Shown piece by piece: positions 1 to 47,256 of a DNA stretch of 64,000 nucleotides. The DNA is from Flavobacterium erciyesense (GTDB lineage: Bacteria > Bacteroidota > Bacteroidia > Flavobacteriales > Flavobacteriaceae): NCBI RefSeq assembly GCF_018069925.1, contig NZ_JAGPXB010000002.1, positions 124,001 through 188,000 on the forward strand. The letters run 5' to 3'. The position numbers and the translations under genes are program-made. The stretch's first letter is position 1. Each line of letters begins with the position of its first letter. The notes under the pieces are model-generated. The model was not told where the DNA came from, did no database searches, and saw only the letters and a program-made list of their open reading frames with translations.

Positions 1-171
1 TCCAAAATATATTTGTTAATTAAATTACTTCAACGTATTGTAACCTTTTATACTCTGATATACAAATTAGATCATAATATAGATCCCTTTCAAGTACTTA
101 TTTATAAAACATTTAATGCTATTAACATAAAAACAGTATGGAGTGATACGTGAAAAAATAGCAACTAAAAA

Positions 172-220
172 TAAAAAAAAGGATTCAACTTTAATTAAAA
201 AGTCGAACCCTTTATTTTTT
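172..220. terminator. Rho-independent terminator-like hairpin
   Basis: An imperfect inverted repeat (AAAGGATTCAACTT and AAGTCGAACCCTTT) lies between an A-run and a T-run, so it could act on both strands. It lies downstream of the minus-strand DUF5131 gene and probably ends its transcript. Bases 1-171 are AT-rich with no gene seen. Confidence 0.6.
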
Positions 221-296
221 AATGTACCCACTTTATTATGATTTATATTAATATCTAATTAATTGATTCCATTTTAATGTATTTGACAGAAAATTT

Positions 297-1100
297 TTAA
301 AATGCCTTTTCGTCAGTTATTTTGAAACCATCCATATTAATTGGGAATTCTCGTATTTGAAGGGCTTTTTCAAACTCGTTTGCATCACCGCCGTGTCTAT
401 CTTTCAATTTCAATTCTTCAGCTAAAAAAGTACCTAACTGCTTGACAAAAACTTTTATATTAGTTTTTTTTGAAATTTTAATCAAACTTTTAAACCATTC
501 TATCTTAGCCTCCCGGTAAAGATATTTTCCTGTTTTATTTCCACTTTCGCCTCCGATTATCATCCAATGAAAATTTTCTTTCAAATTTGATGAAAATTCA
601 TCCAATGTTAATTCTCCGATGAGTGGTTCCGCTGAAATAAATCTTATTTTAGCTGGAACTTTTGAAAGAGTTTCGATGCGATCTTTTTCATCATTGCTTT
701 CCACACTGACACCTAGCCAAACGTTTGGGTATCCGTCTCCCCAATCACTAGGAAGGTTATCTAAGATTCTCTCAGGTCTTTTGGTCAGAATTTGGTAAAT
801 ATGGTGAGGAGTGTCTTTAATTATTTGCCACGCTTCAGGTCTCCACTGGTCTGCTTCCTCAATAAACCAGTCTGACCAACTACAGGCAAATATTAATTGC
901 GGCTCCGACCATTTGGTAGGTTCGTCAAACTTTGTTTTTGATTTCAAAACGTCTGTTGGCTTTTGTCCATATCGCTCTTTATCTCTAAACATGTAACAAA
1001 ATTTGCATCCAGCACTAACTTTTCGGCATCCATGCCAAGGGTTCCAAGTCGCACCCGTCCACTGAATTTTTGATAATTCTACTTTTTTGGATTTTTTCAT
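297..1100 (-). CDS. DUF5131 (phage Gp37/Gp68-like) family protein
   Basis: A protein of 267 residues resembling the DUF5131, or phage Gp37/Gp68, family. The N-terminus carries the family pattern TWNPWHGC followed by further cysteines (C25, C32, C35; spacing CX6CX2C). This resembles an iron-sulfur or radical-SAM-like cluster site, though a reaction is not established. A GGESG motif lies near residue 182. Family members are common in phages and mobile elements and are often next to a three-Cys-motif partner (TcmP) gene. No such partner is visible here: there are 623 bases without a gene upstream and a terminator downstream. The family call is fairly firm and the function unknown. Confidence 0.8.
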   Translation of the reverse strand: MKKSKKVELSKIQWTGATWNPWHGCRKVSAGCKFCYMFRDKERYGQKPTDVLKSKTKFDEPTKWSEPQLIFACSWSDWFIEEADQWRPEAWQIIKDTPHHIYQILTKRPERILDNLPSDWGDGYPNVWLGVSVESNDEKDRIETLSKVPAKIRFISAEPLIGELTLDEFSSNLKENFHWMIIGGESGNKTGKYLYREAKIEWFKSLIKISKKTNIKVFVKQLGTFLAEELKLKDRHGGDANEFEKALQIREFPINMDGFKITDEKAF

Positions 1101-1634
1101 CTTCTTTTTTTTAAAATTTATGTTATTAATCGATTTGATTACTACATATACTCTTAGGAAAAAGAAAAGTTGAATATTTGGTGTGATTTTATTTAAAATA
1201 TTCTGTTGGTATTAAAAAATTATGTTTTAACTTACAAATATAATAAGGGAAGTACTTTACCGTCATTAAAATAGGTGATTTTGTATTATAGATATTCGAT
1301 AGCCATAAATGAATTACTCATTTAGAAGTCATTGAATATAGATATAGCAACAGTTGCATAATTATAAAAGCGCTAATCAATGTACAGAATATTTAAAATA
1401 ATGTCAATCAAATATTAAATATACCGTATTACTCATAATACAACTGATCGTATTAATTTGATACAATTAAACTTCGCGCATAATCCAATTAACTACTACT
1501 ATTATGAAAAAAAATTCACAATTATCAACATCGATAAAGTATGTCAAAATCTCAAAAGTAGGTATTTATATGAATGTGATTTATTAATACTCAAAAGTAC
1601 TAAAGAAAATTATAGTATATAGCTGTCTATTTTT

Positions 1635-1678
1635 AAAAATAACATATTAACATTGGGTGTTGTTAATATGTTATTTTT
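1635..1678. terminator. Perfect 18-bp inverted repeat with T-run
   Basis: Arms 1635-1652 and 1661-1678 are exact reverse complements (AAAAATAACATATTAACA), separated by an 8-nt loop and running into a T-run. This is the shape of a strong intrinsic terminator on the plus strand, yet no plus-strand gene lies before it. Its position 46 bases ahead of the recombinase start also allows an insulator or a recombination or operator site. Confidence 0.6.
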
Positions 1679-1681
1679 TTT

Positions 1682-1689
1682 TATCTTTA
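1682..1689 (+). promoter_or_regulatory. Promoter -7 like motif for the recombinase
   Basis: TATCTTTA, one base off the flavobacterial TAnnTTTG consensus, sits 35 bases before the recombinase start codon and just behind the T-run of the inverted repeat. No clear -33 TTG at the right spacing. Confidence 0.35.
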
Positions 1690-1723
1690 CTCTTTACAGT
1701 AAAAATTCTCTAGGACAAGACAA

Positions 1724-2410
1724 ATGAAATACTACATTACTTATATTCGGACTTCAACGAAAAGACAAGATCTAGGACTTGAAGCGCAACAAAATATTAT
1801 TAAGAATTTTCTAAGTAGTGAAGATGTCGTGTTATATTCATTTTCAGAGCAAGAATCTGGAAGTAAAAAAAATAGGATTGAACTAAACAAAGCAATACAA
1901 GCTTGTAAAGATAATAAGGCGGTATTATTGATTGCTAAACTTGATAGACTATCACGAAGTGTATCATTTATATCGACATTACTTGATAGCGATATCGAAA
2001 TAGTAGTTGCTGATATGCCTAACGCAAATAAATTTACTTTACATATCCTAGCTAGCGTTGCCCAACAAGAACTAGATTCTATTCATAAAAGAACAACTGA
2101 CGCTTTGAATGTTATAAAAAACAATATTCACCGTAATGGTTTTCATATTTCAAAGGCGGGCAATCAAATTACTAAGCTAGGTAACGGATCCTGTATTAGT
2201 GAAGAAAACAGATTACTTGGACAACAAGCCATAAAAGCAAAAAAGCTAAGTAACCATAATCTAATCAAAGCTAAGGCATTTGCTAATGTATTAAAAAAAG
2301 CAGGAAGTACTTTAACTGAAATTACCCTGCAATTAAATAACAATGGATTCAAAACTTCACAAGGTAAAAGGTTTCATTTAATGACCACCCGAAGATTATT
2401 TGACCTGTAG
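1724..2410 (+). CDS. Serine recombinase/resolvase family protein
   Basis: A site-specific serine recombinase of 228 residues. The N-terminal catalytic domain opens with the pattern YIRTSTKRQ, giving R9 and the nucleophile S11, and includes the LDRLSR motif (D74, R75, R78). A long helix region follows from about residue 108. The C-terminal ~50 residues look like the small helix-turn-helix 'Recombinase' module (AGSTLTEITLQLNNNGFKT). It is far shorter than large serine integrases (450-700 residues), so it is more likely a resolvase or invertase than the enzyme that moved the element. It stands alone, with 474 gene-free bases after it. Confidence 0.85.
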   Translation: MKYYITYIRTSTKRQDLGLEAQQNIIKNFLSSEDVVLYSFSEQESGSKKNRIELNKAIQACKDNKAVLLIAKLDRLSRSVSFISTLLDSDIEIVVADMPNANKFTLHILASVAQQELDSIHKRTTDALNVIKNNIHRNGFHISKAGNQITKLGNGSCISEENRLLGQQAIKAKKLSNHNLIKAKAFANVLKKAGSTLTEITLQLNNNGFKTSQGKRFHLMTTRRLFDL

Positions 2411-2884
2411 ATGTATATTTTATTGTAAAGACTAATAAACAGAGCTCCTTAGTATAACAAACTGGACATGCTACAAATTATGATTACTACAATTAACAAC
2501 AAATACGATTTACAGACTGTTTCTCAATTATGTTTTCTATCTAAATCGAAAAAAATTTAAGGTATTGATAAAGCGCATCTAAAACGAAATGAAAACCCTG
2601 CCGGACGATCCACTAATGATACTGGGGCTTAGTTTGCTAAAAATTAGTTCAAATGTTTTTGGAAACCACAATTCGTTACCGCATATTAGTTCTATTCAAC
2701 TTGTTTAATTTTTAAATTGTGATGTATGCATGACGTGCAGTATTATCTAAAATGAAATCATTTTGATATAGCTAATCTATATTTTACGAAACAACTGATT
2801 GAATAATACACGTATCTATTTTTAACAGCATTTTTAACATCTAGTAATAATTTTTAATTAATTTTGTAATGCTCTTTTTAAAAT
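2411..2884. other. Gene-free spacer before the copper cluster
   Basis: These 474 bases are AT-rich with no convincing coding frame, RNA gene or repeat. A promoter-like TAATTTTG lies at its right end. It may hold decayed sequence from earlier insertions, but I see nothing assignable. Confidence 0.5.
2859..2866 (+). promoter_or_regulatory. TAnnTTTG promoter for the Cys-rich protein
   Basis: TAATTTTG matches the flavobacterial -7 consensus exactly and ends 18 bases before the ATG at 2885. No -33 TTG at the usual spacing was seen. Confidence 0.5.
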
Positions 2885-3259
2885 ATGAAAAAATACCACT
2901 TTATACTATTATTATTAGGCATGTTTCTTATGCCCAGTAATGTTATGGCTTGTGGTAAAGCTTCAGGCAAGAGTTCTTGCAAAAAAGAGGTTTCATCAAC
3001 TAGAAAAGAAAAAAAGAGTTGCTGTACTAACGACAATTCAAAACAGAAAGACCACAAATCTTGCAAAGGTAATTGCGGTCATTCTAAGTGCGGATGCTCT
3101 TCAACCTGTCCAACTTCTTCAGTAAGCTTGTTATCCGAGATCATTTTTAAAAATAACATGTTTAGCTATTCTTCAATTGAGAAAGTGAAATTTTCAAACA
3201 CAATACCATCAATCTCAGATGGTTTTTATTCTATTTGGCTCATTCCTAAAATAGGCTAA
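2885..3259 (+). CDS. Small secreted cysteine-rich protein, putative metal binder
   Basis: A protein of 124 residues that I cannot place in a named family. Residues 1-22 form a good Sec signal peptide (KK, hydrophobic core, cleavage near VMA-CGK). The next ~60 residues are rich in Cys, Lys and Ser, with nine cysteines including SCC, GNCGHSKCGC and STC patterns and some His. The C-terminal 40 residues are hydrophobic and lack cysteine. The composition recalls metallothioneins and periplasmic copper-binding peptides. As the first gene of a copper cluster, with its own promoter, a periplasmic Cu(I) buffer is a reasonable inference, not a demonstrated role. Confidence 0.7.
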   Translation: MKKYHFILLLLGMFLMPSNVMACGKASGKSSCKKEVSSTRKEKKSCCTNDNSKQKDHKSCKGNCGHSKCGCSSTCPTSSVSLLSEIIFKNNMFSYSSIEKVKFSNTIPSISDGFYSIWLIPKIG

Positions 3260-3441
3260 ATCGTTTTTTGACAGCCATATTTATGTCAAATTCGTAGCAT
3301 TTTGCTACTCAATCTAACAGTTTTTTCTTTTTTTTATACCTAAATGGGTATCGAAATTAATTTCCCTCTTTACTGTTATTTATCCAAATTTATTTTATCA
3401 ACCAATCAAGGTAGTTTACTTTGATTACAACTTTATTTAAA

Positions 3442-4314
3442 ATGAAAAATTCATTTATGAAAATAATGATAGCAATTACTGTATTGTTATCAACTACAAG
3501 TAATGCACAAATAAAAAATGCTAAAACTGAAAATGTAAAAATTCATGGAAATTGTGGCATGTGCGAAACCAAAATCGAAAAAGCTGGAAACATAAAAAAA
3601 ATTGCCAATGTCGATTGGAACCAAGATACTCAAATGGCTACTATAACCTTTGATGCCACCAAAACAAATCAAGACGAAGTACTTAAAAGAATTGCATTAG
3701 TTGGTTACGATAGTGATAAATTCCTTGCTCCAGATGATGTTTATAGTAATCTTCACGGATGTTGTCAATATGAAAGAGTAGCAAAAATTCCTGCTAAAGA
3801 AACAACAACAGCGATGACAAGTAACGAAGACCATTCGACTCATGGTAATCAAGCTGAAGCAACTACTAAAATAGTTCAAAATGACAATCAACTTAAATCG
3901 GTTTTTGATAATTACTTTTTGGTCAAAGATGCGTTAATTGCTTCAAATGGAAATAATACTACCGCTGCTGCAAAAGAATTGGTATTGAGTATCAATACTG
4001 TTAAAATGGAAAAGCTTGAAATGGACGTTCACATGGCGTGGATGGAAGTTGTAAATACGATAAAAAAGAATGCAGAAAATATTGCTAATACAAAAGATGT
4101 TAAAATTCAACGTGACAACTTCACTACATTATCCAAAGACATGTATTCATTAATCAAAGTCTTTAAATATGAAACTCCTGTATACTATCAATTTTGTCCA
4201 ATGTACAACGAAGGTGCAGGTGCTAATTGGTTAAGCAAAGAGAATGCAGTAAAAAATCCCTATTATGGCTCCATGATGCTAAGTTGTGGAAAAACGGTTG
4301 AAACTATAAAATAA
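3442..4314 (+). CDS. HMA domain plus DUF3347 periplasmic protein
   Basis: I choose ATG 3442 (290 residues) over an upstream TTG at 3421 because it gives a proper signal peptide ending near NAQ (residue 23); ATG 3457 is also possible. Residues ~30-90 form a heavy-metal-associated domain with the GNCGMCE site (C38, C41). After a His/Thr linker comes a DUF3347 domain (~residues 150-290). It has the family's typical ending: FCPMYNEG, a WLS motif, NPYYG and a final MLSCG. DUF3347 proteins accompany copper and silver efflux genes in Bacteroidota. Likely role: periplasmic copper binding or delivery. It is probably cotranscribed with the next two genes (5-base gap). Confidence 0.85.
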   Translation: MKNSFMKIMIAITVLLSTTSNAQIKNAKTENVKIHGNCGMCETKIEKAGNIKKIANVDWNQDTQMATITFDATKTNQDEVLKRIALVGYDSDKFLAPDDVYSNLHGCCQYERVAKIPAKETTTAMTSNEDHSTHGNQAEATTKIVQNDNQLKSVFDNYFLVKDALIASNGNNTTAAAKELVLSINTVKMEKLEMDVHMAWMEVVNTIKKNAENIANTKDVKIQRDNFTTLSKDMYSLIKVFKYETPVYYQFCPMYNEGAGANWLSKENAVKNPYYGSMMLSCGKTVETIK

Positions 4315-4319
4315 ATCAA

Positions 4320-4808
4320 ATGAAAAAAGTACATATAATCATAACATCAATGGTTTTGATGTTCTCAATGCAAAGTAATGCGCAAATTGTAAAAGCCGAA
4401 ATTAGAGCAACAGGTTTAACGTGTTCCATGTGTTCCAACGCTATTAACAAGCAGCTAAAAAGCATGTCAGAAGTGGCTTATGTAGCAACCGATTTGAATA
4501 CCAATACATTTACAGTAACATTAAAAGAGGGTAACAGTTTAACGCCGAAAGTATTTAAAGAAAAAGTAGAAAAAGCAGGTTTTTTTATTGGTTCATTGGT
4601 GTTAACAGCAAAAGCTGAAACAATTAGGCAAGTAGGTTATATTGAAGTTAATAAAGCTCCAACTAATAATGCCGAAGTCCAAATTCAAATTTTAGACAAA
4701 GGCTATGTTACAGAGAAAGAATTTAAAAAACTATCTAAATCGCTCAAGAATGTAGCAACTTATGCTTTAAACAACGAAGACGATTTTCATGCTAAATATA
4801 TAAACTAA
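4320..4808 (+). CDS. Secreted HMA-domain copper-binding protein
   Basis: A protein of 162 residues with a signal peptide (cleavage near SNA-QIV) and one heavy-metal-associated domain at about residues 24-90. The binding site is TGLTCSMCSN with C35 and C38. The last ~70 residues have no recognised domain. HMA domains bind Cu(I) through the CxxC pair. The gene starts 5 bases after the HMA-DUF3347 gene, and its stop overlaps the start of the next gene (TAATG), so the three are probably translated from one message. Likely a periplasmic metal chaperone. Confidence 0.8.
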   Translation: MKKVHIIITSMVLMFSMQSNAQIVKAEIRATGLTCSMCSNAINKQLKSMSEVAYVATDLNTNTFTVTLKEGNSLTPKVFKEKVEKAGFFIGSLVLTAKAETIRQVGYIEVNKAPTNNAEVQIQILDKGYVTEKEFKKLSKSLKNVATYALNNEDDFHAKYIN

Positions 4809-5617
4809 TGAGAAAGATTTTCATTTTATTAATGGTGTTTACACTTCAAAAAAATTACAGTCAAGAGTTATTTGTAGTTACCGATCCTGCGAGTAATGTG
4901 CCTGCAAATACAATAAGTGTTCGACTTTCACAATCTTTGTTTAAGGAAGAATTTGTACCGGGCTATAATTATCATTTGATGCCAGAGGTTACTTATGGGT
5001 TGAATAAAAATCTAATGTTTAGGGGCTCTGCTTTTGTAAGCAATCGAAGTAACCAATTGGTAACTGAAGGCGGAAGTTTGTATACCAAGTATCGCTTTTA
5101 TTCAACCGATGATTTAAACAGTCATTTTCGTTTGGCAGCATTCGGAAGATACAGTTTCAATAATGCCGATATTCATCAAGAACAAATCGAAATTATGGGC
5201 CATAATACTGGTTTTGAAACCGGATTTGTGGCAACTAAATTGATAAAAAAAGTAGCCATAAGTTCATCCGTAAGCTTTGAAAAAGCCTTTGACAATAAAC
5301 CTAATTATCCTTTTCCAGATGACTTTGGTGATAATGCAACAAATTACACCTTATCATTTGGTAAATTAATGTACCCTAAAAAGTATACCAACTACAAGCA
5401 GACTAACATCAATTTGATGGTTGAATTTGTAGGCCAAAGCATAAACAAAAGCGGTAAGTCCTATCTGGATGTTGTTCCTGCAATTCAGTTTATTATCAAT
5501 AGTCAAGCGCGGATAGATTTGGCTTACCGACAAGAGTTGGTAAGTTCCATGTTAAGAACTGCGCCAAATGGCTTTTATTTTAATCTGGAGTACATCTTTT
5601 TTAATGCATCCAAGTAA
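4808..5617 (+). CDS. Putative outer-membrane beta-barrel protein of the copper operon
   Basis: A protein of 269 residues with a short signal peptide (cleavage near NYS-QEL). The rest alternates polar and hydrophobic residues with many aromatics and Gly/Asn turns, as in outer-membrane barrels, and ends in FFNASK. I do not recognise a named family with certainty; similar proteins sit beside HMA genes in Bacteroidota copper clusters. Its start overlaps the stop of the preceding HMA gene, which ties it to copper handling. It could be a specific pore or a surface copper-binding protein. Confidence 0.65.
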   Translation: MRKIFILLMVFTLQKNYSQELFVVTDPASNVPANTISVRLSQSLFKEEFVPGYNYHLMPEVTYGLNKNLMFRGSAFVSNRSNQLVTEGGSLYTKYRFYSTDDLNSHFRLAAFGRYSFNNADIHQEQIEIMGHNTGFETGFVATKLIKKVAISSSVSFEKAFDNKPNYPFPDDFGDNATNYTLSFGKLMYPKKYTNYKQTNINLMVEFVGQSINKSGKSYLDVVPAIQFIINSQARIDLAYRQELVSSMLRTAPNGFYFNLEYIFFNASK

Positions 5618-5726
5618 GTAGTATGAATTATACAACTTAATTAGTCAAACGTGTAACATACTTAATAACAATATTTTGTACCATTACAAGACAGAAATTA
5701 TTCTGCAATTTAAATCAATTAAAAAA

Positions 5727-6029
5727 ATGAAAAAAATAATCTTTTCAGCCATAATAATGGCTTTCGTTTTGGTTTCATGTAACCAAAAAACTAAAGAAGC
5801 ATCAACAACCGATTACGAAATGATGGAAAATGATTCTACAACAATGAAAAATGATGGAACAATGATGGAACACGATTCTACAATGACTGATCATTCGAAG
5901 ATGGATCATTCTAACATATATGCTTGTTCAATGCATCCTGAAGTTCAAGGAAAAATGAATGACAAATGTTCTAAATGCGGTATGAAATTGACTGAACCTG
6001 TTCCAGAAAATGGTGAAGGAAGCAAATAA
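5727..6029 (+). CDS. Lipoprotein with heavy-metal-binding (HMBD) motif
   Basis: Starting at ATG 5727 gives a 100-residue protein with a textbook lipoprotein signal (LVSC, lipidated C18); an earlier start at 5676 would bury that signal. Residues ~30-62 are strikingly rich in Met, Asp and His. The C-terminus is a heavy-metal-binding domain of the YACSMHPE...CSKCGMKL type (C67, M69, H70, C81, C84). The same domain recurs twice in the ATPase and once in the multicopper oxidase of this cluster. Likely an envelope-anchored copper-binding protein that buffers or hands over metal. Confidence 0.85.
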   Translation: MKKIIFSAIIMAFVLVSCNQKTKEASTTDYEMMENDSTTMKNDGTMMEHDSTMTDHSKMDHSNIYACSMHPEVQGKMNDKCSKCGMKLTEPVPENGEGSK

Positions 6030-6053
6030 CAGTTAATTTTTAGTCATTAGCTT

Positions 6054-6089
6054 AAACTAACTTTGTTAATATTTTAGCAAGGTTAGTTT
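6054..6089. terminator. Hairpin between the lipoprotein and the AraC-type regulator
   Basis: AAACTAACTTTG (6054-6065) and CAAGGTTAGTTT (6078-6089) pair over 12 bases with one G-T, around a 12-nt loop. The T-run after it is poor. It may end the lipoprotein transcript, or serve as an operator for the regulator that starts 29 bases later. Confidence 0.45.
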
Positions 6090-6117
6090 ATATCGTTTTA
6101 GCAAAAAACATTGTACA

Positions 6118-6678
6118 ATGAAGCTTTACATCAAAAATATGGTTTGTGCTCGCTGCATAATGGTTGTGAAGTCCGTTTTTGAAAATATGGATATTAATCC
6201 TATTTCAGTTGAATTGGGAGAAGTTGAATTGAAACATGACATTCCCGAAAACCAAAAACAGGAATTAGTAAAAAGTCTTCGAAGTATAGGCTTTGATTTA
6301 ATTAGCGACAAGAAAAGTAAAACTATCGATAAAATTAAAACACTGATTATTGATTTGGTTCAAAATAAAAACAACGATTTGAAAATTAATTTATCCAATT
6401 ACCTTTCACAAGAACTGCGTCAAGATTATAATACATTGAGTAATCTTTTCTCCGAAGTCGAAAATACCACTATCGAAAAGTATTTCATTAATCAGAAAAT
6501 TGAGAAAGTAAAAGAGTTGATTATGTATGATGAACTCTCATTAAGTGAAATTGCTTATTCTTTAAATTACAGTACTGTTTCACATTTGAGCAATCAATTT
6601 AAAAAAGTAACTGGCTTCTCTCCAACCTTCTTCAGGAATATAAAAACCATAAAAAGAAAACAGATAGAAGATTTATAA
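6118..6678 (+). CDS. AraC-type regulator with N-terminal HMA-like metal-sensing domain
   Basis: A protein of 186 residues. The first ~65 residues have the HMA fold pattern with a CARC metal site (C10, C13) and the closing LRSIGFDL segment. After a linker comes an AraC-type DNA-binding domain (~residues 85-183). Its second helix-turn-helix is clear (LSLSEIAYSLNYSTVSHLSN followed by GFSPTFFRN). It has no signal peptide, so it is cytoplasmic. The layout predicts direct control by Cu(I) or another soft metal, and the likely target is the ATPase-DUF2911-oxidase unit beginning 77 bases downstream. Architecture is seen; the inducer and targets are inferred. Confidence 0.85.
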   Translation: MKLYIKNMVCARCIMVVKSVFENMDINPISVELGEVELKHDIPENQKQELVKSLRSIGFDLISDKKSKTIDKIKTLIIDLVQNKNNDLKINLSNYLSQELRQDYNTLSNLFSEVENTTIEKYFINQKIEKVKELIMYDELSLSEIAYSLNYSTVSHLSNQFKKVTGFSPTFFRNIKTIKRKQIEDL

Positions 6679-6755
6679 ATTTTGCATATCAAACCCAAAA
6701 TTCTGCAACTCCAAAAAAGTATTAAACTGGAAATTTGTATTTAAATAACAAAAAA

Positions 6756-9293
6756 ATGATACATACATACAACATTACCGGAATGACTTGCGATGGTTGT
6801 CGCGCTAAAGTCGAAAAATCGTTGCATACTATTGAGGGTATTAAAGCAAAAGTTTCCCTAAATCCGCCTACAGCAACAATAACTATGGAAAAGCACATTT
6901 CAATAGAAAAGTTGCAAGAGGCTTTATCAGCCGCGGGAAAATACACTATTGAAATGAGCAAAGTGGAGGTGATCGAGTATTCAGAAACAAATAAAGCAAC
7001 TGAAAAATCATGTTGCTCTACCCCATCTCATCATCATAAAAAAGAAAGTACTTTACCGAGCAATGCACAAGCAAAATATTATTGCCCTATGCATTGCGAA
7101 GGCGAAAAAGTATACGACAAAGCAGGAGATTGTCCTGTGTGTGGAATGGATTTGGTAAAAGCATCAGAGTTAACCGTTAGCAAAACGCAGTATACATGTC
7201 CAATGCATCCCGAAGTAATTCAAGAAGATCCGGGTTCATGCCCGATATGTGGAATGGATCTAGTGGCAATGGAACCAAGCGAAAGCGAAGACCAAAAGAC
7301 GTATACCGATCTGGTCAAAAAAATGAAAATTGCGGTGGTGTTTACTGTTCCGATTTTCATCATTGCCATGATTGATATGGCCCATAACAATCCCTTACTA
7401 CAATTAATGGATTCCGCAAAATGGAATTGGGTACAATTAATTTTTTCACTTCCTGTAGTGTTTTATGCCTGTTGGATATTTTTTGTCCGTGCTTGGAAAT
7501 CAATAATCACATGGAATTTGAACATGTTTACTCTTATCGGAATTGGTACGGGAGTCTCTTTCCTTTTCAGTTTAGTTGGAATGTTTTTTCCGGATATTTT
7601 TCCCAGCGAATTCAAAACAGAACATGGAACGGTATTGTTATACTTCGAAGCGACAACCGTTATTTTAACTCTTGTATTATTAGGACAATTACTCGAAGCC
7701 CGAGCGCACAGTCAAACAAGCGGAGCAATAAAAGAATTATTAAAACTGGCACCTACCGAAGCTACTTTGGTTAGTGAAGGAAGTGACAAAGTAATTTCAA
7801 TCCACGATATCAAGAAAGGCGATTTATTACGCGTAAAACCTGGAGATAAAATTCCTGTAGATGGAAAAATAACTGATGGTGAAAGCAGTATCGATGAAGC
7901 TATGATTACTGGTGAACCAATACCTGTTGACAAGAAGAAAGATGATATTATCATTGCTGGGACTATAAATGGGAATAAATCATTTGTAATGATCGCTGAA
8001 AAAGTAGGTTCCGAAACTTTACTTTCTCAAATCGTGCAAATGGTCAACGATGCCTCACGTTCAAGAGCACCTATTCAAAAATTAGCAGATAGTATTGCCA
8101 AATATTTTGTACCCACTGTGGTGATAATTTCCTTAATTACATTTTTGATTTGGGCAAATTTTGGTCCTGAACCTGCATTAGTGTATGGATTTATAAATGC
8201 AATTGCGGTTTTAATTATTGCTTGTCCATGTGCTTTAGGTTTGGCAACTCCAATGTCAGTAATGGTGGGTGTTGGTAAAGGAGCACAATCAGGCGTTTTG
8301 ATTAAAAATGCTGAAGCTCTGGAGAATATGAATAAGGTTAATGTTCTGATTACAGATAAAACAGGAACCATCACTGAGGGAAAACCATCCGTGGAAAAAA
8401 TTTATTCGACCAATAACAGTGATACTGATTTATTACAAAGCATTGCTTCATTAAACCAATACAGTGAGCATCCATTGGCACAAGCAGTAGTCAATTTTGC
8501 CAAATCAAAATCAATCTCATTAATTGAGGTGAAAGATTTTGAAGCAGTTGCCGGAAAAGGGGTTACAGGAACAGTATCGAATAAAAAAGTAGCATTAGGT
8601 AATAAAAAGCTAATGGAGCAAGTTAAAGCAACGGTTTCTGAAGATTTAGAAAACAAAATTATAGCCGAACAAAAACTAGGCAAAACCGTTTCTTATATTG
8701 CAGTTGATGGAATTGCAGTTGGTTTTGTGTCCATCTTGGATGCCATTAAAGAATCAAGTGCTGCAGCCATTAAAGAATTAATGCGTCAAGGTGTCGAAGT
8801 AATTATGCTCACCGGAGATAACGAAAATACTGCCAAAGCAGTTGCTGATGAATTGGGGTTAGCATCATACAAAGCTGGATGCTTACCCGAAGACAAACTG
8901 AAAGAAATAAAAAAATTACAAGCCGAAGGCAAAATTGTGGCAATGGCTGGCGATGGAATAAACGATGCTCCGGCATTGGCACAAGCAGACATTGGAATTG
9001 CAATGGGAACTGGAACCGATGTTGCCATAGAAAGTGCCAAAATCACTTTAGTAAAAGGGGATTTATTAGGTATCGTGAAAGCCAAAAATTTGAGCCATGC
9101 TGTTATGAAAAATATAAAGCAAAATCTATTCTTTGCCTTTTTCTATAATGTTTTGGGAGTTCCAATCGCAGCAGGAGTTTTGTATCCGTTTTTCGGAATT
9201 TTATTATCCCCAATGATTGCGGCTTTAGCCATGTCATTTAGTTCGGTATCAGTAATTGTGAATGCATTACGGTTAAAAAATTTAAAACTTTAA
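6756..9293 (+). CDS. copA: Copper-translocating P1B-type ATPase
   Basis: ATG 6756 (845 residues) is preferred to a TTG at 6735 because it places the HMA domain at the very start (GMTCDGC; C12, C15). Two heavy-metal-binding motifs follow (YYCPMH with C110, YTCPMHPE with C148). Then come the membrane and catalytic parts: the TGE motif (MITGEP), the CPC translocation site (C490, C492), the phosphorylation site DKTGT (D534), the SEHPLA motif of the N-domain and GDGINDAPA (D733). CPC with a C-terminal helix pair carrying N and MxxSS-type residues marks the Cu(I)/Ag(I) subgroup. It exports Cu(I) from the cytoplasm. It is probably the first gene of an operon with the DUF2911 and oxidase genes. Confidence 0.95.
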   Translation: MIHTYNITGMTCDGCRAKVEKSLHTIEGIKAKVSLNPPTATITMEKHISIEKLQEALSAAGKYTIEMSKVEVIEYSETNKATEKSCCSTPSHHHKKESTLPSNAQAKYYCPMHCEGEKVYDKAGDCPVCGMDLVKASELTVSKTQYTCPMHPEVIQEDPGSCPICGMDLVAMEPSESEDQKTYTDLVKKMKIAVVFTVPIFIIAMIDMAHNNPLLQLMDSAKWNWVQLIFSLPVVFYACWIFFVRAWKSIITWNLNMFTLIGIGTGVSFLFSLVGMFFPDIFPSEFKTEHGTVLLYFEATTVILTLVLLGQLLEARAHSQTSGAIKELLKLAPTEATLVSEGSDKVISIHDIKKGDLLRVKPGDKIPVDGKITDGESSIDEAMITGEPIPVDKKKDDIIIAGTINGNKSFVMIAEKVGSETLLSQIVQMVNDASRSRAPIQKLADSIAKYFVPTVVIISLITFLIWANFGPEPALVYGFINAIAVLIIACPCALGLATPMSVMVGVGKGAQSGVLIKNAEALENMNKVNVLITDKTGTITEGKPSVEKIYSTNNSDTDLLQSIASLNQYSEHPLAQAVVNFAKSKSISLIEVKDFEAVAGKGVTGTVSNKKVALGNKKLMEQVKATVSEDLENKIIAEQKLGKTVSYIAVDGIAVGFVSILDAIKESSAAAIKELMRQGVEVIMLTGDNENTAKAVADELGLASYKAGCLPEDKLKEIKKLQAEGKIVAMAGDGINDAPALAQADIGIAMGTGTDVAIESAKITLVKGDLLGIVKAKNLSHAVMKNIKQNLFFAFFYNVLGVPIAAGVLYPFFGILLSPMIAALAMSFSSVSVIVNALRLKNLKL

Positions 9294-9310
9294 ATGAAAA
9301 AATTAAAAAA

Positions 9311-10183
9311 ATGAAAAAAATAATCTTATTAAGCATAATCCTTTTGCAATCTTTAATAGTATCAGCACAAGAAAAAGTTCAAATTAGAGTTACCACATCA
9401 AGCCCAGCAGCATCGTTTGAGCAAGAAGTAGGTAGCGCAAAAATAAAAGTAGCCTACAGCAGACCATTAGTAAGAGGCCGAAAAGTATTTGGTGAGTTAG
9501 TGCCTTTTGATAAACTTTGGCGAACAGGTGCAAGTGATTGCACAGTGATAAATACTTCCGAAGATATTTATTTTGGCAACAATCTTTTAAAAGCCGGTAG
9601 TTACTCCATATTTTCAATTCCTTCCAATAATGAGTGGACTATAATTGTTAATACTGATACTGCTTTACATGGTGAAACGGGCTACGATGAAAAGAAAGAC
9701 GTGATGCGAATCAAAGTTCCCATTGAAAAAAGTCCTAATTTCTATGAAACCTTTACAATTGAATTAAATGACATTAACAGTAAAGGGGAAGCATTTCTAA
9801 AAATTATTTGGGAAAACACAATGGTAAAAATACCCCTAAAGAGTAAAGAGGACGACAATATACTTGCATTAATAGACCAACACATCACTAAAGGAAAAAC
9901 CCAAGATGCTACTTTATTGTTTCAGGCAGCAAATTATTATTACAGCACCAATAGAGATTTCAAACAAGCAATAATGTGGCTTTTAGAAGCTGAAAAAGTA
10001 GACCCTCAAAATTTCTATTACCCCAATTTGAGACAAAAAATGGCTTCGGAATTACAAGATTACAACAATGCAATTGCTGCAGCAAAGAGAGCAATTACAT
10101 TACTCGATAAAGAAAAAATGAAAGGTACAATCGACATCTTAAATAAAAGAATCGCAGATTGGGAAAAATTAATAAAAAATTAA
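9311..10183 (+). CDS. DUF2911 domain secreted protein
   Basis: A protein of 290 residues with a signal peptide cleaved near VSA-QEK. Residues ~25-170 match DUF2911: a beta-rich domain with the typical VAYSRPLVRGRKVFGELVPF and WRTGASD segments. The last ~110 residues are helical, with TPR-like spacing (ATLLFQAANYYYSTNRDFKQ). The function of DUF2911 is unknown; it is common among secreted Bacteroidota proteins. It lies 17 bases after copA and 4 bases before the oxidase gene, so it is probably part of the copper operon, possibly as a folding or assembly factor (inference). Confidence 0.85.
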   Translation: MKKIILLSIILLQSLIVSAQEKVQIRVTTSSPAASFEQEVGSAKIKVAYSRPLVRGRKVFGELVPFDKLWRTGASDCTVINTSEDIYFGNNLLKAGSYSIFSIPSNNEWTIIVNTDTALHGETGYDEKKDVMRIKVPIEKSPNFYETFTIELNDINSKGEAFLKIIWENTMVKIPLKSKEDDNILALIDQHITKGKTQDATLLFQAANYYYSTNRDFKQAIMWLLEAEKVDPQNFYYPNLRQKMASELQDYNNAIAAAKRAITLLDKEKMKGTIDILNKRIADWEKLIKN

Positions 10184-10187
10184 AGTA

Positions 10188-12707
10188 ATGAAATTCAAAT
10201 TAGCAATCATAGTTTTTCTTTTTTTGATTAATCACGTAGCTGTCGCTCAGGTTAATTCACAAAAAACGTCTTACACCTGCGTCATGCATCCTGAAATCCA
10301 ATCACCAAAACCTGGTGAATGTCCTAAATGTGGGATGGCGTTAGTTAAAGCAAAAGTTAAACCGATAAAAAAAGCAGTCGCTACAAAAAAGGTGATTTCT
10401 GAAACAAAAAAAGAAGTGAAGGAAGTTTCAGAACCCATAAAAGAAACTCCAAAAATCGTTGAAGTTCCAAAAAATATTCCTATTTCTGAAAGCAAATCTA
10501 TAGTTAAGACAATAGCTAAAACAGTGAGATACGATCTATACGTTCGGGATACTCTGGTAACTATTGGTAATAAACCTACTAGAGCAATTGCTGTAAACGG
10601 TCAAATTCCAATGCCCACGCTAACCTTTACGGAAGGAGATACTGCCGAAATATACGTTCATAACGAATTAAAAGAAAGTACCTCACTGCATTGGCATGGC
10701 CTATTTTTACCCAATAAAGAAGATGGTGTACCTTACCTAACACAAATGCCAATTGAACCAGGTACAACGCATAAATATAGTTTTCCAATCATACAACACG
10801 GAACACATTGGTACCACAGTCATTCGGGTTTACAGGAGCAAATCGGGATGTACGGTTCAATGATTTTAAACAAAAGAGTTGAGGACGAAACCTTCAGAAA
10901 AGGTATTGACGATTTGCCAACAGTTCCTTTAATTTTAAGTGAATGGACCGATGTAAATCCAAATAATGTGCATCGAATGCTACACAATGCTACCGATTGG
11001 TTTGCTATTCAAAAAGGAACTACTCAAAGTTATGCAGAGGCAATCAAGCAAGGTCATTTCAAAACTAAAGTAGCAAACGAATGGAAACGCATGAATGCAA
11101 TGGATGTGAGTGATGTTTACTATGATGCCTTTTTAATTAATGGTAAAAGTAATAGTCAATTATCCCAATTCAAAGGAGGCGACAAAGTACGATTACGCAT
11201 TTCAAATGGTGGTGCATCAACTTATTTTTGGCTAACGTATGCAGGGGGTAAAATTACGGTTGTTGCCAATGATGGTAATGACGTTGAGCCTGTTGAAGTA
11301 GATCGATTATTAATTGCCGTTTCAGAAACCTATGATGTCGTAGTGACCATTCCTGCTGATAATACAGCGTTCGAATTTCTAGCAACTCCAGAAGACAGGA
11401 CTAAATCGGCATCACTATATATTGGTGATGGTATCAAACAATTAATTTCACCATTACCAAAATTAAAATATTTTGATGGAATGAAAATGATGAACGGAAT
11501 GATGAAAATGAACGGAGATTTAGATGATATGGGAATGCAAATGTCTTACAATCAAATGGACATGAATGTAGTCATGTATCCTGAAATCACTGGAGAAGTT
11601 GCAAAAAAAGAACATAGAGAAAAGAAAATAGATCATTCTATGCATTCTATTAAAATGACTGAAAACGATTATAACAGTAACCAACTTTCAGACATTACGA
11701 CTTTAAATTATGCAATGTTAAAATCACCAACTAAAACCACACTGCCTCAAGATGCACCAGTAAAAGAATTACGATTTGAATTATCGGGAAACATGAACCG
11801 TTATGTTTGGAGTTTAGACAATAAAGTGGTTTCTGAAACTGATAAAATTTTAATCAAGAAAGGTGAAAATGTTAGAATTACGTTATACAACGGTTCTATG
11901 ATGCGACATCCAATGCACTTGCACGGTCACGATTTTAGAGTGTTGAACGGTCAAGGAGATTATGCACCATTGAAGAACGTCATAGACATCATGCCAATGG
12001 AAACGGATGTGATTGAATTCAATGCCAATACTGAAGGCGATTGGTTTTTTCATTGCCATATTTTGTACCACATGATGGCAGGAATGGGACGCGTTTTTAC
12101 CTATGAAAATCAAGCACCAAACCCATTAATTCCAAATCCAAAATTAGCACAACGCAAATTGTTTGGCGAAGACCGTAAATTTCACCTTATGGCAGAAAAT
12201 GATTTTGCTACTAACGGTAATGATGGTATGGCAATGTTAAGCAACACACGTTGGAGTATTGGTACAGAATGGCGATTGGGCTACAAAGATCATCATGGTT
12301 ATGAAACAGAAACTCATATTGGTAGATATATTGGCAAAATGCAATGGCTAATGCCGTTCATAGGCTTTGATTGGCGTTACCGCAAAATGGAAGAAGGTAA
12401 AATGGAAAAAAACATATTCAACCAATCCAATACAAAAGACAACCGTTCTGTTTTTAGTGCAGGTATAGAATATACGCTACCAATGCTTATAAAAGCACAA
12501 GCCGAGGTTTTTACAGATGGAAATTTTAGATTTCAATTAGAACGAATGGATATTCCTGTTTCTAAAAGAGTTCGCATGGATTTAATGTGGAATACCGATA
12601 AAGAATACATGGCAGGATTGCGCTACATCATCAAAAGAAATTTTAGTATTAAAACGCATTTCGACAGTGATATGGGATTAGGTTTGGGTGTAAATTTAAA
12701 TTATTAA
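10188..12707 (+). CDS. Multicopper oxidase with N-terminal HMBD and C-terminal barrel-like domain
   Basis: A protein of 839 residues. The signal peptide ends near residue 20 (VAVAQ). Next are a heavy-metal-binding motif (YTCVMHPE...CPKCGM) and a Lys/Glu-rich linker to about residue 108. The cupredoxin domains of a CopA/PcoA-type oxidase follow, with all four copper motifs: HWHG (H168, H170), HWYHSH (H207, H210, H212), HPMHLHGH (H574, H577, H579) and HCHILYHMMAGM (H622-M633). A Met-rich loop lies near residues 430-460. From ~660 to the end is an extension patterned as an outer-membrane barrel, resembling CopB/PcoB and ending in an aromatic residue. Likely role: periplasmic Cu(I) oxidation, anchored at the outer membrane. 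Confidence 0.9.
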   Translation: MKFKLAIIVFLFLINHVAVAQVNSQKTSYTCVMHPEIQSPKPGECPKCGMALVKAKVKPIKKAVATKKVISETKKEVKEVSEPIKETPKIVEVPKNIPISESKSIVKTIAKTVRYDLYVRDTLVTIGNKPTRAIAVNGQIPMPTLTFTEGDTAEIYVHNELKESTSLHWHGLFLPNKEDGVPYLTQMPIEPGTTHKYSFPIIQHGTHWYHSHSGLQEQIGMYGSMILNKRVEDETFRKGIDDLPTVPLILSEWTDVNPNNVHRMLHNATDWFAIQKGTTQSYAEAIKQGHFKTKVANEWKRMNAMDVSDVYYDAFLINGKSNSQLSQFKGGDKVRLRISNGGASTYFWLTYAGGKITVVANDGNDVEPVEVDRLLIAVSETYDVVVTIPADNTAFEFLATPEDRTKSASLYIGDGIKQLISPLPKLKYFDGMKMMNGMMKMNGDLDDMGMQMSYNQMDMNVVMYPEITGEVAKKEHREKKIDHSMHSIKMTENDYNSNQLSDITTLNYAMLKSPTKTTLPQDAPVKELRFELSGNMNRYVWSLDNKVVSETDKILIKKGENVRITLYNGSMMRHPMHLHGHDFRVLNGQGDYAPLKNVIDIMPMETDVIEFNANTEGDWFFHCHILYHMMAGMGRVFTYENQAPNPLIPNPKLAQRKLFGEDRKFHLMAENDFATNGNDGMAMLSNTRWSIGTEWRLGYKDHHGYETETHIGRYIGKMQWLMPFIGFDWRYRKMEEGKMEKNIFNQSNTKDNRSVFSAGIEYTLPMLIKAQAEVFTDGNFRFQLERMDIPVSKRVRMDLMWNTDKEYMAGLRYIIKRNFSIKTHFDSDMGLGLGVNLNY

Positions 12708-12752
12708 TTATAACACATATAATTTCACTATCATTAGATCATTCACTTAAAC

Positions 12753-12793
12753 AAAAATCGCCTTTAGGACAAGTATTCCTATTGGCGATTTTT
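12753..12793. terminator. Terminator of the copper operon
   Basis: AAAAATCGCC (12753-12762) and GGCGATTTTT (12784-12793) are perfect complements, and TAGGA/TCCTA pair inside them. A-run and T-run flank the stem, so it works both ways. It follows the oxidase stop codon by 46 bases. Confidence 0.8.
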
Positions 12794-13140
12794 ATTATTT
12801 CAATTAACTATCATTTTATCAATTATGTGTTCAAATCATAAGTGCAACAAACTTGTTATTGACTAAAATATTTATTGTTCAAAAAGATAGTTTATTAAGC
12901 AATCTTATATTTATGGATAGTATTTTTTCGATTTTGTTCCTTTGCTTTTTTTTAATTGTAGACTAAAAAACTTATTGTTAGAATTAAGTAAATAGATAAG
13001 TTACTAATAAAAAAATCCTTTACAAGGAGTGAGGAAAAAGCATGAAGAAAACGGTAAAAAACGATAAAAACAGATTTTTACAAAAAACTAAAACATTGCA
13101 ATTCAATTATTTAAAAAATAAAAAGAGTGAAATTTCAATT
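12794..13140. other. Gene-free AT-rich end of the element
   Basis: About 350 bases between the operon terminator and the tRNA fragment. It is AT-rich with no coding frame or clear repeat. It would be the terminal segment of the inserted element, where integrase arm sites might be expected; none is recognisable by eye. Confidence 0.5.
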
Positions 13141-13185
13141 TTCATAACCCTGAGGTCCCGAGTTCAAATCTCGGTCTCGCTACCA
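13141..13185 (+). tRNA. 3' half of a tRNA with anticodon CAT (attachment-site remnant)
   Basis: Reading back from CCA (13183-13185) gives discriminator A, acceptor 3' strand TCTCGCT, T-arm CCGAG-TTCAAAT-CTCGG, variable loop AGGTC, anticodon stem 3' strand CCCTG and anticodon loop TTCATAA, so anticodon CAT (Met, fMet or Ile2). CCC below the loop hints at the initiator type. The 5' half (CAGGG stem, D-arm, acceptor) is absent: the sequence to the left is AT-rich and unrelated. A break in the anticodon loop, with an intact 3' end, is what integration into a tRNA gene leaves at the far side of the element. Confidence 0.8.
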
Positions 13186-13190
13186 AAACA

Positions 13191-13220
13191 AAAACCCTAA
13201 CATCAATTTGTTAGGGTTTT
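13191..13220. terminator. Terminator directly behind the tRNA fragment
   Basis: AAAACCCTAACA and TGTTAGGGTTTT pair perfectly over 12 bases around a 6-nt loop and run into further T residues. It lies 5 bases past the CCA, as expected for the original terminator of the interrupted tRNA gene, which supports chromosomal sequence resuming here. Confidence 0.8.
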
Positions 13221-13264
13221 TTGATGGAAGTGTATTTCTAGGAAATAGCCTTTAAAAAAAATAA

Positions 13265-13534
13265 CTATTTAACCTCATACGCTACTTTTCCTTTTCGTTT
13301 TCTTTGAGAGCCAAAGCTTTGATGGTAGGAAGAAATATTTTTTTTAAATTCTTTTAGCACTTGTGATTGTCCAAAACAACAAAAACCATTCTGCAATTGC
13401 GGAATTGAATTACTTATATTACCCTTTTTTGCATGCGTTTGATTTTGCCAGACTGTTTTTCCTTTGACACAAAAAAACGAGCATAAAAAAAACGCAAGTA
13501 TCACTAACTTCTTGGGAACTGTAATTGTTATCAT
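13265..13534 (-). CDS. Hypothetical small secreted protein
   Basis: An 89-residue frame with a plausible signal peptide (VPKKLVILAFFLCSFFCVKG) followed by a Gln/Asn/Lys-rich tail with two adjacent cysteines. No family recognised. An overlapping minus-strand frame in another phase (13419-13643) is less protein-like. It follows the response-regulator gene on the same strand after 154 bases. Low certainty that it is real. Confidence 0.35.
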   Translation of the reverse strand: MITITVPKKLVILAFFLCSFFCVKGKTVWQNQTHAKKGNISNSIPQLQNGFCCFGQSQVLKEFKKNISSYHQSFGSQRKRKGKVAYEVK

Positions 13535-13688: not shown

Positions 13689-14357
13689 TTATATAAGACC
13701 CAGGTCTTTTGCGATTGATACCAAATGGGTAGTATTGAGCGCTCTAAAGTATATTTTCAATTTACCAATTCGCTTTTCGATGGTGCTTTTGCTGTTTGGG
13801 GTAATTCCTGCTTCTTTAAAAACAGACTCCATTGCTTCTTGAGAGACGCCTTTTGAGAGGTACTCTAATAACTGAATGTCGTAGTCATCAATTTCGTTGA
13901 CTAATTTTTCTTGAAAAATAAACTGTAAATCTGTGGGCAGATACGGTATATCCTGAGTTGCAATTGCCTCGACAGCTTTGCGCAACTCGACCATTGTATT
14001 GCGCCCTTTCATCACAAAACCATGGACACCTGATTGTTCAAATAGGGCTTTAATACGATAGGATTTGTCTTCAATAGAAAAAGCAATGATTTTTAAATCC
14101 GGGAAAATTCCCTTTACTGCATCAATCAAAGCTTCGCCAGATGATAATAAAGTGGTACGATGATCAGCCTTGAATGACAAATCGGTTATTAACAAATCAT
14201 AGGGAACCTCATCTAAAGCCGCTTTTTTTATTTTCAGCAACGCATCGTCACAGTATTTTGTAAAGTCAATTTGTGGGATTCCCATTTCCTTTAAAACACT
14301 GACCGCTGCTACATCATTGAAATCAATATCGTCAACTATTAAAACTTTTCGAAACAT
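13689..14357 (-). CDS. Two-component response regulator (LuxR/NarL-like)
   Basis: A protein of 222 residues. Residues 1-130 form a receiver domain with the acidic pair D9/D10 and phospho-acceptor D59 (LLITDL). The C-terminal ~65 residues (from about LLEYLSKGVSQEAMESVFKE) form a helix-turn-helix of the kind found in NarL/LuxR-type regulators, though divergent. The gene lies 7 bases after the sensor kinase gene and is surely its partner. This family in Flavobacteriia is poorly characterised and the target genes cannot be read from the sequence. Confidence 0.85.
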   Translation of the reverse strand: MFRKVLIVDDIDFNDVAAVSVLKEMGIPQIDFTKYCDDALLKIKKAALDEVPYDLLITDLSFKADHRTTLLSSGEALIDAVKGIFPDLKIIAFSIEDKSYRIKALFEQSGVHGFVMKGRNTMVELRKAVEAIATQDIPYLPTDLQFIFQEKLVNEIDDYDIQLLEYLSKGVSQEAMESVFKEAGITPNSKSTIEKRIGKLKIYFRALNTTHLVSIAKDLGLI

Positions 14358-14364
14358 AAGTCAC

Positions 14365-16086
14365 TTATTTAGGAAATGTTAATCTGATTTTTAGCCCTTT
14401 TGAGCTTTTCGAGTCAAAAATAATACTTCCTCCAATGGCATCAATACGGTTTTCCACATTGAGCAGTCCATTTTTACTTTGTAGGGGATTTTTTATACCA
14501 ATTCCGTTATCTGAATAATGAACATAACATTGTTTATTGTCTGTCTCAAAGCGAAGTACTACAAAAGTCCCTTGACTGTGTTTTTTCATGTTGATCATTA
14601 ATTCTTGCAACACACGATACAAAGCAATTTTCTTTTCTTCTGTAATCTTATTCCATGGAATGCTATTACTATCCTTTAAAATAACCTGTACTTGAGCTGC
14701 ATTAAAACTAGATAGCATTTCCTTTAATTCGCTTTCATAGGTTTCACCCGTGGGAATAGGGCTGTTTTCTCTCGATATGTTGCGTGTTCGACGGTAAATT
14801 TTATCCAAATTATCTAACAAGGTTTCTTTTTGACTTACATTTTGCAAGTCTTGCGTTTCTGCAAAAGCAATTGTTTGATAAACGTCATTGGCTAATTCAT
14901 CATGCAATTTTTTAGAAATTCGAATTTCACTTTCATATATTGCTGCTTGTTTTTCTTTCTTGTTCTTATCTTGAAGATAGAAATATAAAATGAGTGCCAA
15001 AATTACCCCCAAGAGCATGATAAAAAACAACATATAATTTTGAAGTTTTTCTTGCTCTAATGCCAAAGCTTTTTCTGCATTATCTGTTTTTAATTGTAAA
15101 TTCTCATTTTGTGCTTGTGTAGCATCATACTTGATTTTGGCAAACTGATTTTTAGCAATCTGCCTAACTTTTGTAATACTATCATTAAGTTGAAGGTATT
15201 TTTTTGTGTAGTTTCGCACTTGTAATGGAGTACTTATTTCCATCAGCAATGCCAAAGCTGATAAGCGATCATCGATACTTTTTAGCACTGTGGCTTTAGC
15301 ATACGATTCTTGTGCATATTTGATTGCCAATTGGGGCTGTCTCCTTTGATAATACTGAGCAAGATTGTTAAAACTAGTGACCAAACCATAGTCAAATTGT
15401 AATTGTTGGCGAATCTTCAAAGCTCTTTTTAAGACCATACCGCTTCTGTTATCTCCTATTTTATAATAGCAATAGCCTAGATTACCTAAAACTCTAGCAA
15501 GATGCTCTAAGTTGGCCTGAGCAATTGGTGATTTAGAGAGCGACTCAAGTGACTGTATGGCTTGTTTGTAGTTTTGTTGCTCCATGTTCACCACCGCAAT
15601 ATTATTCTGCATGATTTCTTTTTGCAAAGGCGTATCAGCCAATTCACTTGCTTTTTTGTAATACGTAATGGCGTTGGGATAATCGTAAAGGTTCTTATAA
15701 TTAATCCCTAAAGAATTGTATATCGCCACTTTATACTGGGTTTCAATTTTGTTTTTAAAGTAGGAAATCGCCTCTGTAGCAGTAACTTCACTTCCTACAT
15801 AATCTCCCTGTGTTTGCTGTATCGCGGCCATTTTTAGGAGTGCATATACTATTTTTTCTGCATCTTCTTTAGCGGAACTTTGGGTTCGAATTTGATTGTA
15901 ATAGTAGTAGGCGCTGTCGTAAACACCCTCCGCATAAAAATCTTCTGCCGTTGTAATGTACTTTTCATAAACGGTAACCGATTTAACTGCTGTTTGATTA
16001 GGCGTTGTTTTTGAACAAGAACAAAAAAAATCCCCTATGAATAAGAGAAAAATAAAAAACGGGAAACGTACTTTTTGTAGTATCAT
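14365..16086 (-). CDS. TPR-containing sensor histidine kinase (HisKA_3 type)
   Basis: A protein of 573 residues. The N-terminus has a lipoprotein-like signal (FFCSC). About 300 residues of tetratricopeptide repeats follow in the periplasm (repeats such as AIYNSLGINYKNLYDYPNAI). Then come a coiled-coil segment, one membrane span (YMLFFIMLLGVILALILYFY) and a cytoplasmic kinase. The phospho-accepting histidine is H395 in ISKKLHDELAND, typical of HisKA_3 kinases, and the ATPase domain has YSDNGIGI and GLLNVENRI motifs. It pairs with the response regulator downstream. The signal it senses is unknown; TPRs suggest a protein or peptide ligand. Confidence 0.9.
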   Translation of the reverse strand: MILQKVRFPFFIFLLFIGDFFCSCSKTTPNQTAVKSVTVYEKYITTAEDFYAEGVYDSAYYYYNQIRTQSSAKEDAEKIVYALLKMAAIQQTQGDYVGSEVTATEAISYFKNKIETQYKVAIYNSLGINYKNLYDYPNAITYYKKASELADTPLQKEIMQNNIAVVNMEQQNYKQAIQSLESLSKSPIAQANLEHLARVLGNLGYCYYKIGDNRSGMVLKRALKIRQQLQFDYGLVTSFNNLAQYYQRRQPQLAIKYAQESYAKATVLKSIDDRLSALALLMEISTPLQVRNYTKKYLQLNDSITKVRQIAKNQFAKIKYDATQAQNENLQLKTDNAEKALALEQEKLQNYMLFFIMLLGVILALILYFYLQDKNKKEKQAAIYESEIRISKKLHDELANDVYQTIAFAETQDLQNVSQKETLLDNLDKIYRRTRNISRENSPIPTGETYESELKEMLSSFNAAQVQVILKDSNSIPWNKITEEKKIALYRVLQELMINMKKHSQGTFVVLRFETDNKQCYVHYSDNGIGIKNPLQSKNGLLNVENRIDAIGGSIIFDSKSSKGLKIRLTFPK

Positions 16087-35715: not shown

Positions 35716-35851
35716 ACAAATTATTAGGAGCTTTTTCCTGCTGTACGCTATATTCCCGATAAATAAAAACTACGGCAAAAAAGCCTTGTTTTTCTAAATC
35801 GGGAGATACCGCTGCCATCAGGGCTAGGGCCTTACTGCAACATCACAAAAC

Positions 35852-47177: not shown

Positions 47178-47256
47178 AATTCTAATTTTTTGTAGCCCAA
47201 TGGGCTTGGTATTGTAAATGGCTAGCGTGCACTAGTTTTCTTTAAAAACGTACTCC

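Follow-up and report, generated by a model that had tools for sequence, protein, structure and literature searches.

A truncated tRNA gene lies close to a set of copper genes in the window, i.e., the 64-kb stretch analysed here (C12:124001-188000 of a draft genome of 3.43 Mb in 42 contigs), and raises the question of whether it marks the right end of an integrated element that carries those genes. Read directly, window 13141-13185 runs on the plus strand from the anticodon loop (TTCATAA) to the encoded CCA of the 3' half of a tRNA-Met(CAT), with the 5' half absent, and is followed by a hairpin:

13141..13185, plus strand: att3, displaced 3' half of tRNA-Met(CAT) at the right end of island B; 13141-13183 identical to the 3' end of the intact tRNA and to att2 (C12:110918-110960)
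13190..13221, plus strand: terminator-like hairpin after the tRNA half, with a 13-bp stem and a U run after it

The tRNA half, its upstream copies and the target gene

ARAGORN called no tRNA in the 64-kb window, nor around the 13141-13185 site. The hairpin, in which 13190-13202 pairs with 13209-13221 over 13 bp (-16.9 kcal/mol; z -5.9 against shuffles), resembles those that follow intact tRNA-Met genes in four other genomes (G007, G010, G029, G110). Exactly three copies of the 43-nt core of the half tRNA were found in the genome, all on the plus strand of C12, at 51488, 110918 and 137141 (window 13141), as against 0 matches for a reversed-pattern control; no fourth core with up to three mismatches was found in the whole genome. 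The first copy lies inside an intact tRNA-Met(CAT) (C12:51456-51530), 85.7 kb upstream of the window half, and the second (C12:110918-110960, att2) is a lone 3' half, 26.2 kb upstream of it. By ARAGORN and tRNA search, an intact tRNA was present at the first of the three only. The exact cores, together with the direct reading and the ARAGORN result, bear out the original prediction that the site is the 3' half of a tRNA(CAT) lacking its 5' half and followed by a hairpin. The check it proposed was also run and returned an intact tRNA-CAT upstream that ends in the same 43 nt and has a tyrosine integrase as its neighbour.

The tRNA search, in which 150 of 323 candidates were scored, found at least 44 tRNA genes. 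Those with a CAT anticodon were two initiators (C12:314193 and 314300, with a GGG/CCC anticodon stem), one gene on C1 and the target gene; there was no CAT anticodon among 14 lower-scoring tRNA genes. Going by sequence features, the target looks like an elongator Met gene and the C1 gene like tRNA-Ile(CAU). The target would thus be the sole elongator-Met gene found in the genome, which fits with islands that restore the tRNA exactly. An initiator tRNA, suggested at the outset as the possible target, was rejected for this locus: the gene is of the elongator type, and both initiators found sit elsewhere on C12.

Islands A and B and the chromosomal border

The three cores delimit two segments, referred to here as islands A and B:

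C12:51488-110918: island A, 59.4 kb, with cores at both ends and the integrase beside the tRNA
C12:51595-52812: integrase A, a tyrosine integrase (PF00589) that starts 64 bp after the intact tRNA
C12:110918-137183, no strand: island B, 26.2 kb, from cores, ORFs and Pfam; its right part is window 1..13183 and its left half, including the integrase, lies upstream of the window
C12:111163-112440, minus strand: integrase B, a tyrosine integrase (PF00589; 30.9 bits, above the cut-off of 27.1)
13026..13036, plus strand: presumed right arm-type site of integrase B, GGAGTGAGGAA, a direct repeat near the end of B

The cores are identical and in line, an integrase gene lies by the left core of each island, and repeats apart from the core are found at both ends of A and of B. 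The integrase B gene adjoins the second 3' half (att2), i.e., the left end of island B. As expected of members of a tandem array, A and B each come with a separate integrase and a separate tDNA fragment, and the fragment of B lies downstream of the intact tDNA in the same orientation on one replicon. Very likely, the locus is a tandem array in the order tRNA - A - 3' half - B - 3' half - chromosome, in which 13141-13185 is the attR of B. The prediction that this site is the right end of an integrated copper element agrees with the intact tRNA upstream, the tyrosine integrase and the end repeats, and neither a different 3' half upstream nor a copper cluster in place without tRNA duplication was seen. 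What needs revision is the idea of one element: the island end stands, but there are two tandem islands, and the integrase by the intact tRNA belongs to A. Likewise, the 3' copy does mark the right end, but a second 3' half (C12:110918) forms B's own left end.

On this reading, the elongator-type tRNA-Met gene would have been the target of integrase B, with recombination at its anticodon-loop site, island B bringing in a tRNA 3' half and the old 3' half being pushed to the far end. Because the island carried this 3' half, the tRNA gene would have stayed whole. Island A, with a tyrosine integrase of another family and the same 43-bp core, would have stacked between the intact tRNA and B; its arrival after B is the simplest order. 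Judged from the sequence, either island may still be able to excise.

The short direct repeats at both ends of B are putative arm-type sites, of the sort that a bivalent (lambda-like) tyrosine integrase would bind. Within 180 kb of C12, GGAGTGAGGAA occurs exactly only at C12:111053 and 137026, one copy near each end of B; one mismatch gives 8 matches, 3 of them at the ends of B. We scanned 19 sites for this end motif, including nine left ends by an integrase-B gene and three far ends (this genome, G117 and G179). Allowing two mismatches in 11, a lenient threshold at which alone some relatives match, the motif was present at eight of the nine left ends, mostly as two or three copies 12-13 bp apart; the left end in G093 lacked it and had another tandem repeat instead. 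It was present at all three far ends of integrase-B islands. Other occurrences of the motif are at the third core of G117 and near both G177 cores, where an integrase-B gene was not observed. For island A, the direct repeats at the two ends, which are likewise presumed to be arm-type, lie at C12:51624-51650 (in the integrase gene) and 110826-110846 (far end), and TGAACACGA also occurs twice singly within the island.

A single island of 85.7 kb, reaching from the intact tRNA to 13185 and retaining the middle 3' half as a relic, would accommodate the identity of all three cores, with which A and B could leave as one. Each segment, however, starts on the left with a separate integrase and is bounded on both sides by a repeat motif of its own, and relatives have an A-type integrase at the tRNA without a B-type nearby, and the reverse; we consider a single island improbable. 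Truncated tRNA copies can have other origins, such as a segmental duplication that leaves a tRNA pseudogene with no integration involved. This is already unlikely because the duplicated stretch does not reach beyond the tRNA on the left. In addition, the copied part starts at the anticodon loop, the copies are in line on one strand, integrases and repeats lie where they would be expected, and the same is seen at the tRNA-Met of relatives, so that we give this explanation almost no credence.

Chromosome was predicted to resume at about 13186. Base composition changes only gradually here, and the border was judged from the hairpin and the flanking genes, which include:

13689-14357, minus strand: response regulator, chromosome; receiver domain below the cut-off (27.2 against 30.2 bits)
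14365-16086, minus strand: TPR sensor kinase, chromosome; HATPase_c

G105 and G207, which are the closest relatives when judged by the right flank, also have the response regulator (about 81%) and sensor (71-73%) next to each other, and in neither genome is the pair beside the tRNA-Met. A gene lying to the right of the G105 tRNA, the only such gene tested, is here on another contig, C32, and no simple empty site was found in G105 or G207. Because these relatives do not match at the tRNA-Met, the border rests on the hairpin and the orthologues, and on synteny with genome G232 further right, where genes match from C12:140338 (window 16338) on at 54-97%, from a flippase to adenylosuccinate synthetase. 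A further, degraded island might thus extend rightward from 13186, as the position of the response regulator and sensor away from the tRNA-Met in G105 and G207 would allow. A small ORF (13265-13534) has no Pfam match; by eye it looked like kin of the small gene by the G207 response regulator, but no similarity was detectable. G232, moreover, has a degraded core fragment about 24 kb past its third core, which makes its own right border uncertain. On the other hand, there is no further core within three mismatches genome-wide, the core is followed by a hairpin like those after intact tRNA-Met elsewhere, and the genes from 13689 have G105 and G207 orthologues, with those from 16338 on syntenic with G232. 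A rightward island is unlikely on balance, albeit a more serious contender than a single island. The chromosome likely resumes at 13186, as predicted, with a start possible anywhere up to 13689. Further right in the window, three Flavo-1 RNAs (RF01705) scored above the gathering threshold (35730-35829, 40266-40350 and 47255-47337).

G232 has the same left neighbours and a related island A, of which 27.6 of 59.5 kb, the integrase and relaxase among them, are alignable at 96%; the restriction genes lie in the right part, which is different in the two genomes. An exact second core and a third with three mismatches are present, and the surroundings of the third are 87% identical over 204 bp to the right end of B (C12:137025-137225). 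When the nine copper ORFs were compared with 126 kb of G232, the only match was a 28% P-type ATPase match in a kdpB-like gene, and no copper gene was found. With a B-type end and a related island A but no copper genes in the 126 kb of G232 examined, the island ends are shared and the cargo differs. A further stacked segment of that genome (G232:C1:135400-160000) has a row of short paralogues resembling leader peptides and exporter-like genes, perhaps a natural-product cluster, a name given by appearance only.

Cargo of the islands

Island B encodes the tyrosine integrase, a 141-aa ORF, a 506-aa protein for which a Pfam search gave no match, HsdS/HsdM/Bro-N/HsdR and, within the window, the following:

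297..1100, minus strand: DUF5131 protein, cargo (PF07505, E 3.1e-60; PADLOC candidate models PDC-M41B and PDC-M30B)
1724..2410, plus strand: small serine recombinase, cargo (PF00239, E 6.4e-22)
2885..12707, plus strand: copper cluster, cargo, by Pfam comprising HMA and DUF3347 proteins, an AraC-type regulator, a P-type ATPase, a DUF2911 protein and a multicopper oxidase

As predicted, the copper cluster, recombinase and DUF5131 gene are cargo: all lie inside island B, their domains being assigned by Pfam. The serine recombinase was rejected as the island integrase, since a tyrosine integrase adjoins the left core of each island. No relaxase domain, as an integrative mobilizable element would carry, was found among the 20 island B ORFs of at least 70 aa (Pfam, E 0.001). 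The 141-aa ORF (C12:112437-112862) overlaps the start of integrase B and is kept beside the integrase in six aligned relatives at 27-34% identity; it matches neither Pfam nor PHROGs and is a candidate excisionase. Island A carries a relaxase (PF03432) with MobC, PAAR and VgrG-like proteins, an SpvB/RHS protein and a DNA polymerase III alpha subunit, and ends on the right with type I restriction genes.

The Pfam domains of the copper cluster include HMA, HMBD, P-type ATPase and multicopper oxidase, and suggest that its genes confer copper resistance; of its nine ORFs, those at 2885-3259 and 4808-5617 gave no Pfam match. At an E-value threshold of 1e-100, 108 of 199 genus genomes have a relative of the multicopper oxidase; those in G071, G013 and G040 are the most similar (92-93%). 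The DNA that G013 has in common with this genome consists of pieces of the copper module (C12:126791-136707, 70-86% nucleotide identity); in the 60 kb of G013 examined, there was no other island B gene, i.e., no match to DUF5131 or the serine recombinase. Since G013 shares copper pieces without other B genes, the copper module seems to move between backgrounds. The case shows how a copper cluster became the cargo of a mobile island in Flavobacterium.

Docking in relatives and repeats within the integrase A gene

In a scan of genome contigs, a tRNA-Met(CAT) was found within 1.5 kb of the integrase end at 28 of 40 loci of integrase-B relatives, and within the genus an intact one was nearby at 8 of 14 loci, the two sets sharing some genomes. 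Integrase B is thus mostly a tRNA-Met integrase. The remaining 12 of the 40 loci had no intact tRNA-Met near. At one in F. frigoris (L185), a 3' half lies by integrase B, with the intact tRNA on the same contig (L201), 10 kb away; another (L205) stops at a contig end; and at L172, L178, L199, L200 and L206 no tRNA-Met was found near. In five genomes (L189-L193; three Chitinophaga or Chitinophagaceae and two Bacteroidetes), the integrase-B relative abuts a truncated 5' half of an initiator tRNA. An intact initiator is also present in four of these five, on the same contig and 10-12 kb off in two (L189-L193, L207-L216), and these islands seem to carry the tRNA 5' half and to replace the promoter side. 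At L176 (~7251-7460), one of the 28 loci with a tRNA-Met, the integrase-B relative has arm-like repeats and the intact tRNA-Met next to it is oriented oppositely to that at the remaining 27.

The core was found within three mismatches in 24 of 199 genus genomes, with more than one copy in eight of the 24. Directly left of the tRNA-Met, a START-like gene is kept at 18 of 19 distinct sites; the right side varies. G117 has an intact tRNA, an exact core 25 kb away and a two-mismatch copy beyond; G179 has an exact core copy 15 kb from the tRNA; and G113 and G232 repeat the order of A-type island, core and B-type end. At least two integrase families thus repeatedly target one tRNA-Met gene and stack their islands at it, and the definition of the site, ends and repeats is good enough for further islands to be sought in the phylum. 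In the A-type island of G113 (C35; L099, L109), HsdR and HsdM are 97% and 94% identical to those of island A and the integrases only 44%; the restriction genes seem to have been swapped between islands.

As a mobile element, island B is of an ordinary kind, and the tandem array to which it belongs is well resolved. In the sections of the Islander study consulted (PMC4383910), islands have an intact tRNA at one end, a same-strand 3' fragment at the other, a tyrosine integrase inside and, in one class, an anticodon-loop core; at that level of description B does not differ in principle, the particulars here being a Flavobacterium host and a cargo of copper and type I restriction genes. The same source gives 159 islands with 5' fragments, and tandems of two or more (125) and of three or more (4); the array described here, for its part, uses different integrase families at the same 43-bp core. 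The 10K island of Riemerella anatipestifer, likewise a tyrosine-integrase island beside a tRNA in Flavobacteriia and one for which integration and excision were shown, is a single island at a different tRNA, tRNA-Arg, and is set apart by its description in the portion of that report drawn on (PMC6764341) rather than by sequence. Island B was not found in a search of the open-access literature, many subscription papers lying outside it.

The repeats inside the integrase gene of neighbouring island A are the part that a specialist may find new. The integrase-A family was present in 56 of 299 genus genomes at E 1e-40, and the best 30 loci (L217-L246) were examined. A tRNA lies directly upstream in 28 of these 30 (CAT in 25, His in 3), and four family members in other genomes sit at initiator tRNAs, as judged by the halves. 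Integrase genes of the family contain in-frame 12-bp repeats with the core GNAYAC, starting at codon 11 and encoding, e.g., EHDF-EHDL, VHQN-VHQN and ANAY-ANAY-ANAY-ENAY. The motif was defined by inspecting these same sequences, and the start codon of integrase A was itself assigned by prediction; on that basis, the first unit is at reading-frame nucleotide 30 in 29 of the 30 best loci, and the thirtieth has a unit there as well, plus a match at 23. Units are in codon phase in 64 of 65 cases and spaced by 12 bp in 34 of 35. Far ends were sought for 19 A-family elements, 15 of which had a tRNA-half copy; GNAYAC units precede 14 of these 15 by 68-125 bp, the exception being G231, whose copy has six mismatches. 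A unit variant was common to gene and far end in 10 of 11 independent elements, as against 3.4 expected by permutation (P ~1e-4); in the other, G181, none was shared.

Taken with these positions, the sequences make it probable that the left arm-type sites of the A family lie within the integrase gene itself, as in-frame repeats. If so, the recombination sites of the enzyme would themselves encode the beginning of the protein, repeat spacing would be locked to whole codons, and integrase binding at attL would be coupled to int expression. Arm-type repeats inside an integrase reading frame were not found in the open-access literature searched, to which many subscription papers do not belong. As far as the relevant part of the KplE1 report goes (PMC2951348), intS attL adjoins int and the tRNA 3' end and overlaps int expression signals; the overlap there is with the int promoter, whereas the repeats of the A family are inside the reading frame from nucleotide 30. 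Archaeal suicidal integrases, in the passages of PMC8371274 used here, resemble the A family in having att sequence within the integrase gene, but there it is the att site itself, whereas the A family has arm-like repeats only and the gene stays whole.

Finally, codon positions were compared over 23 distinct genes. Within the repeats, variability is lowest at the third position (0.63 bits; 0.69 and 0.98 at the other two), whereas in the rest of the gene the third position was never the least variable in 347 overlapping eight-codon windows (mean 1.36 bits). This suggests that DNA, more than protein, is under constraint. The overlap of arm-like repeats and coding sequence in the A family makes it directly testable whether a constraint on DNA has shaped the N-terminus of a protein.
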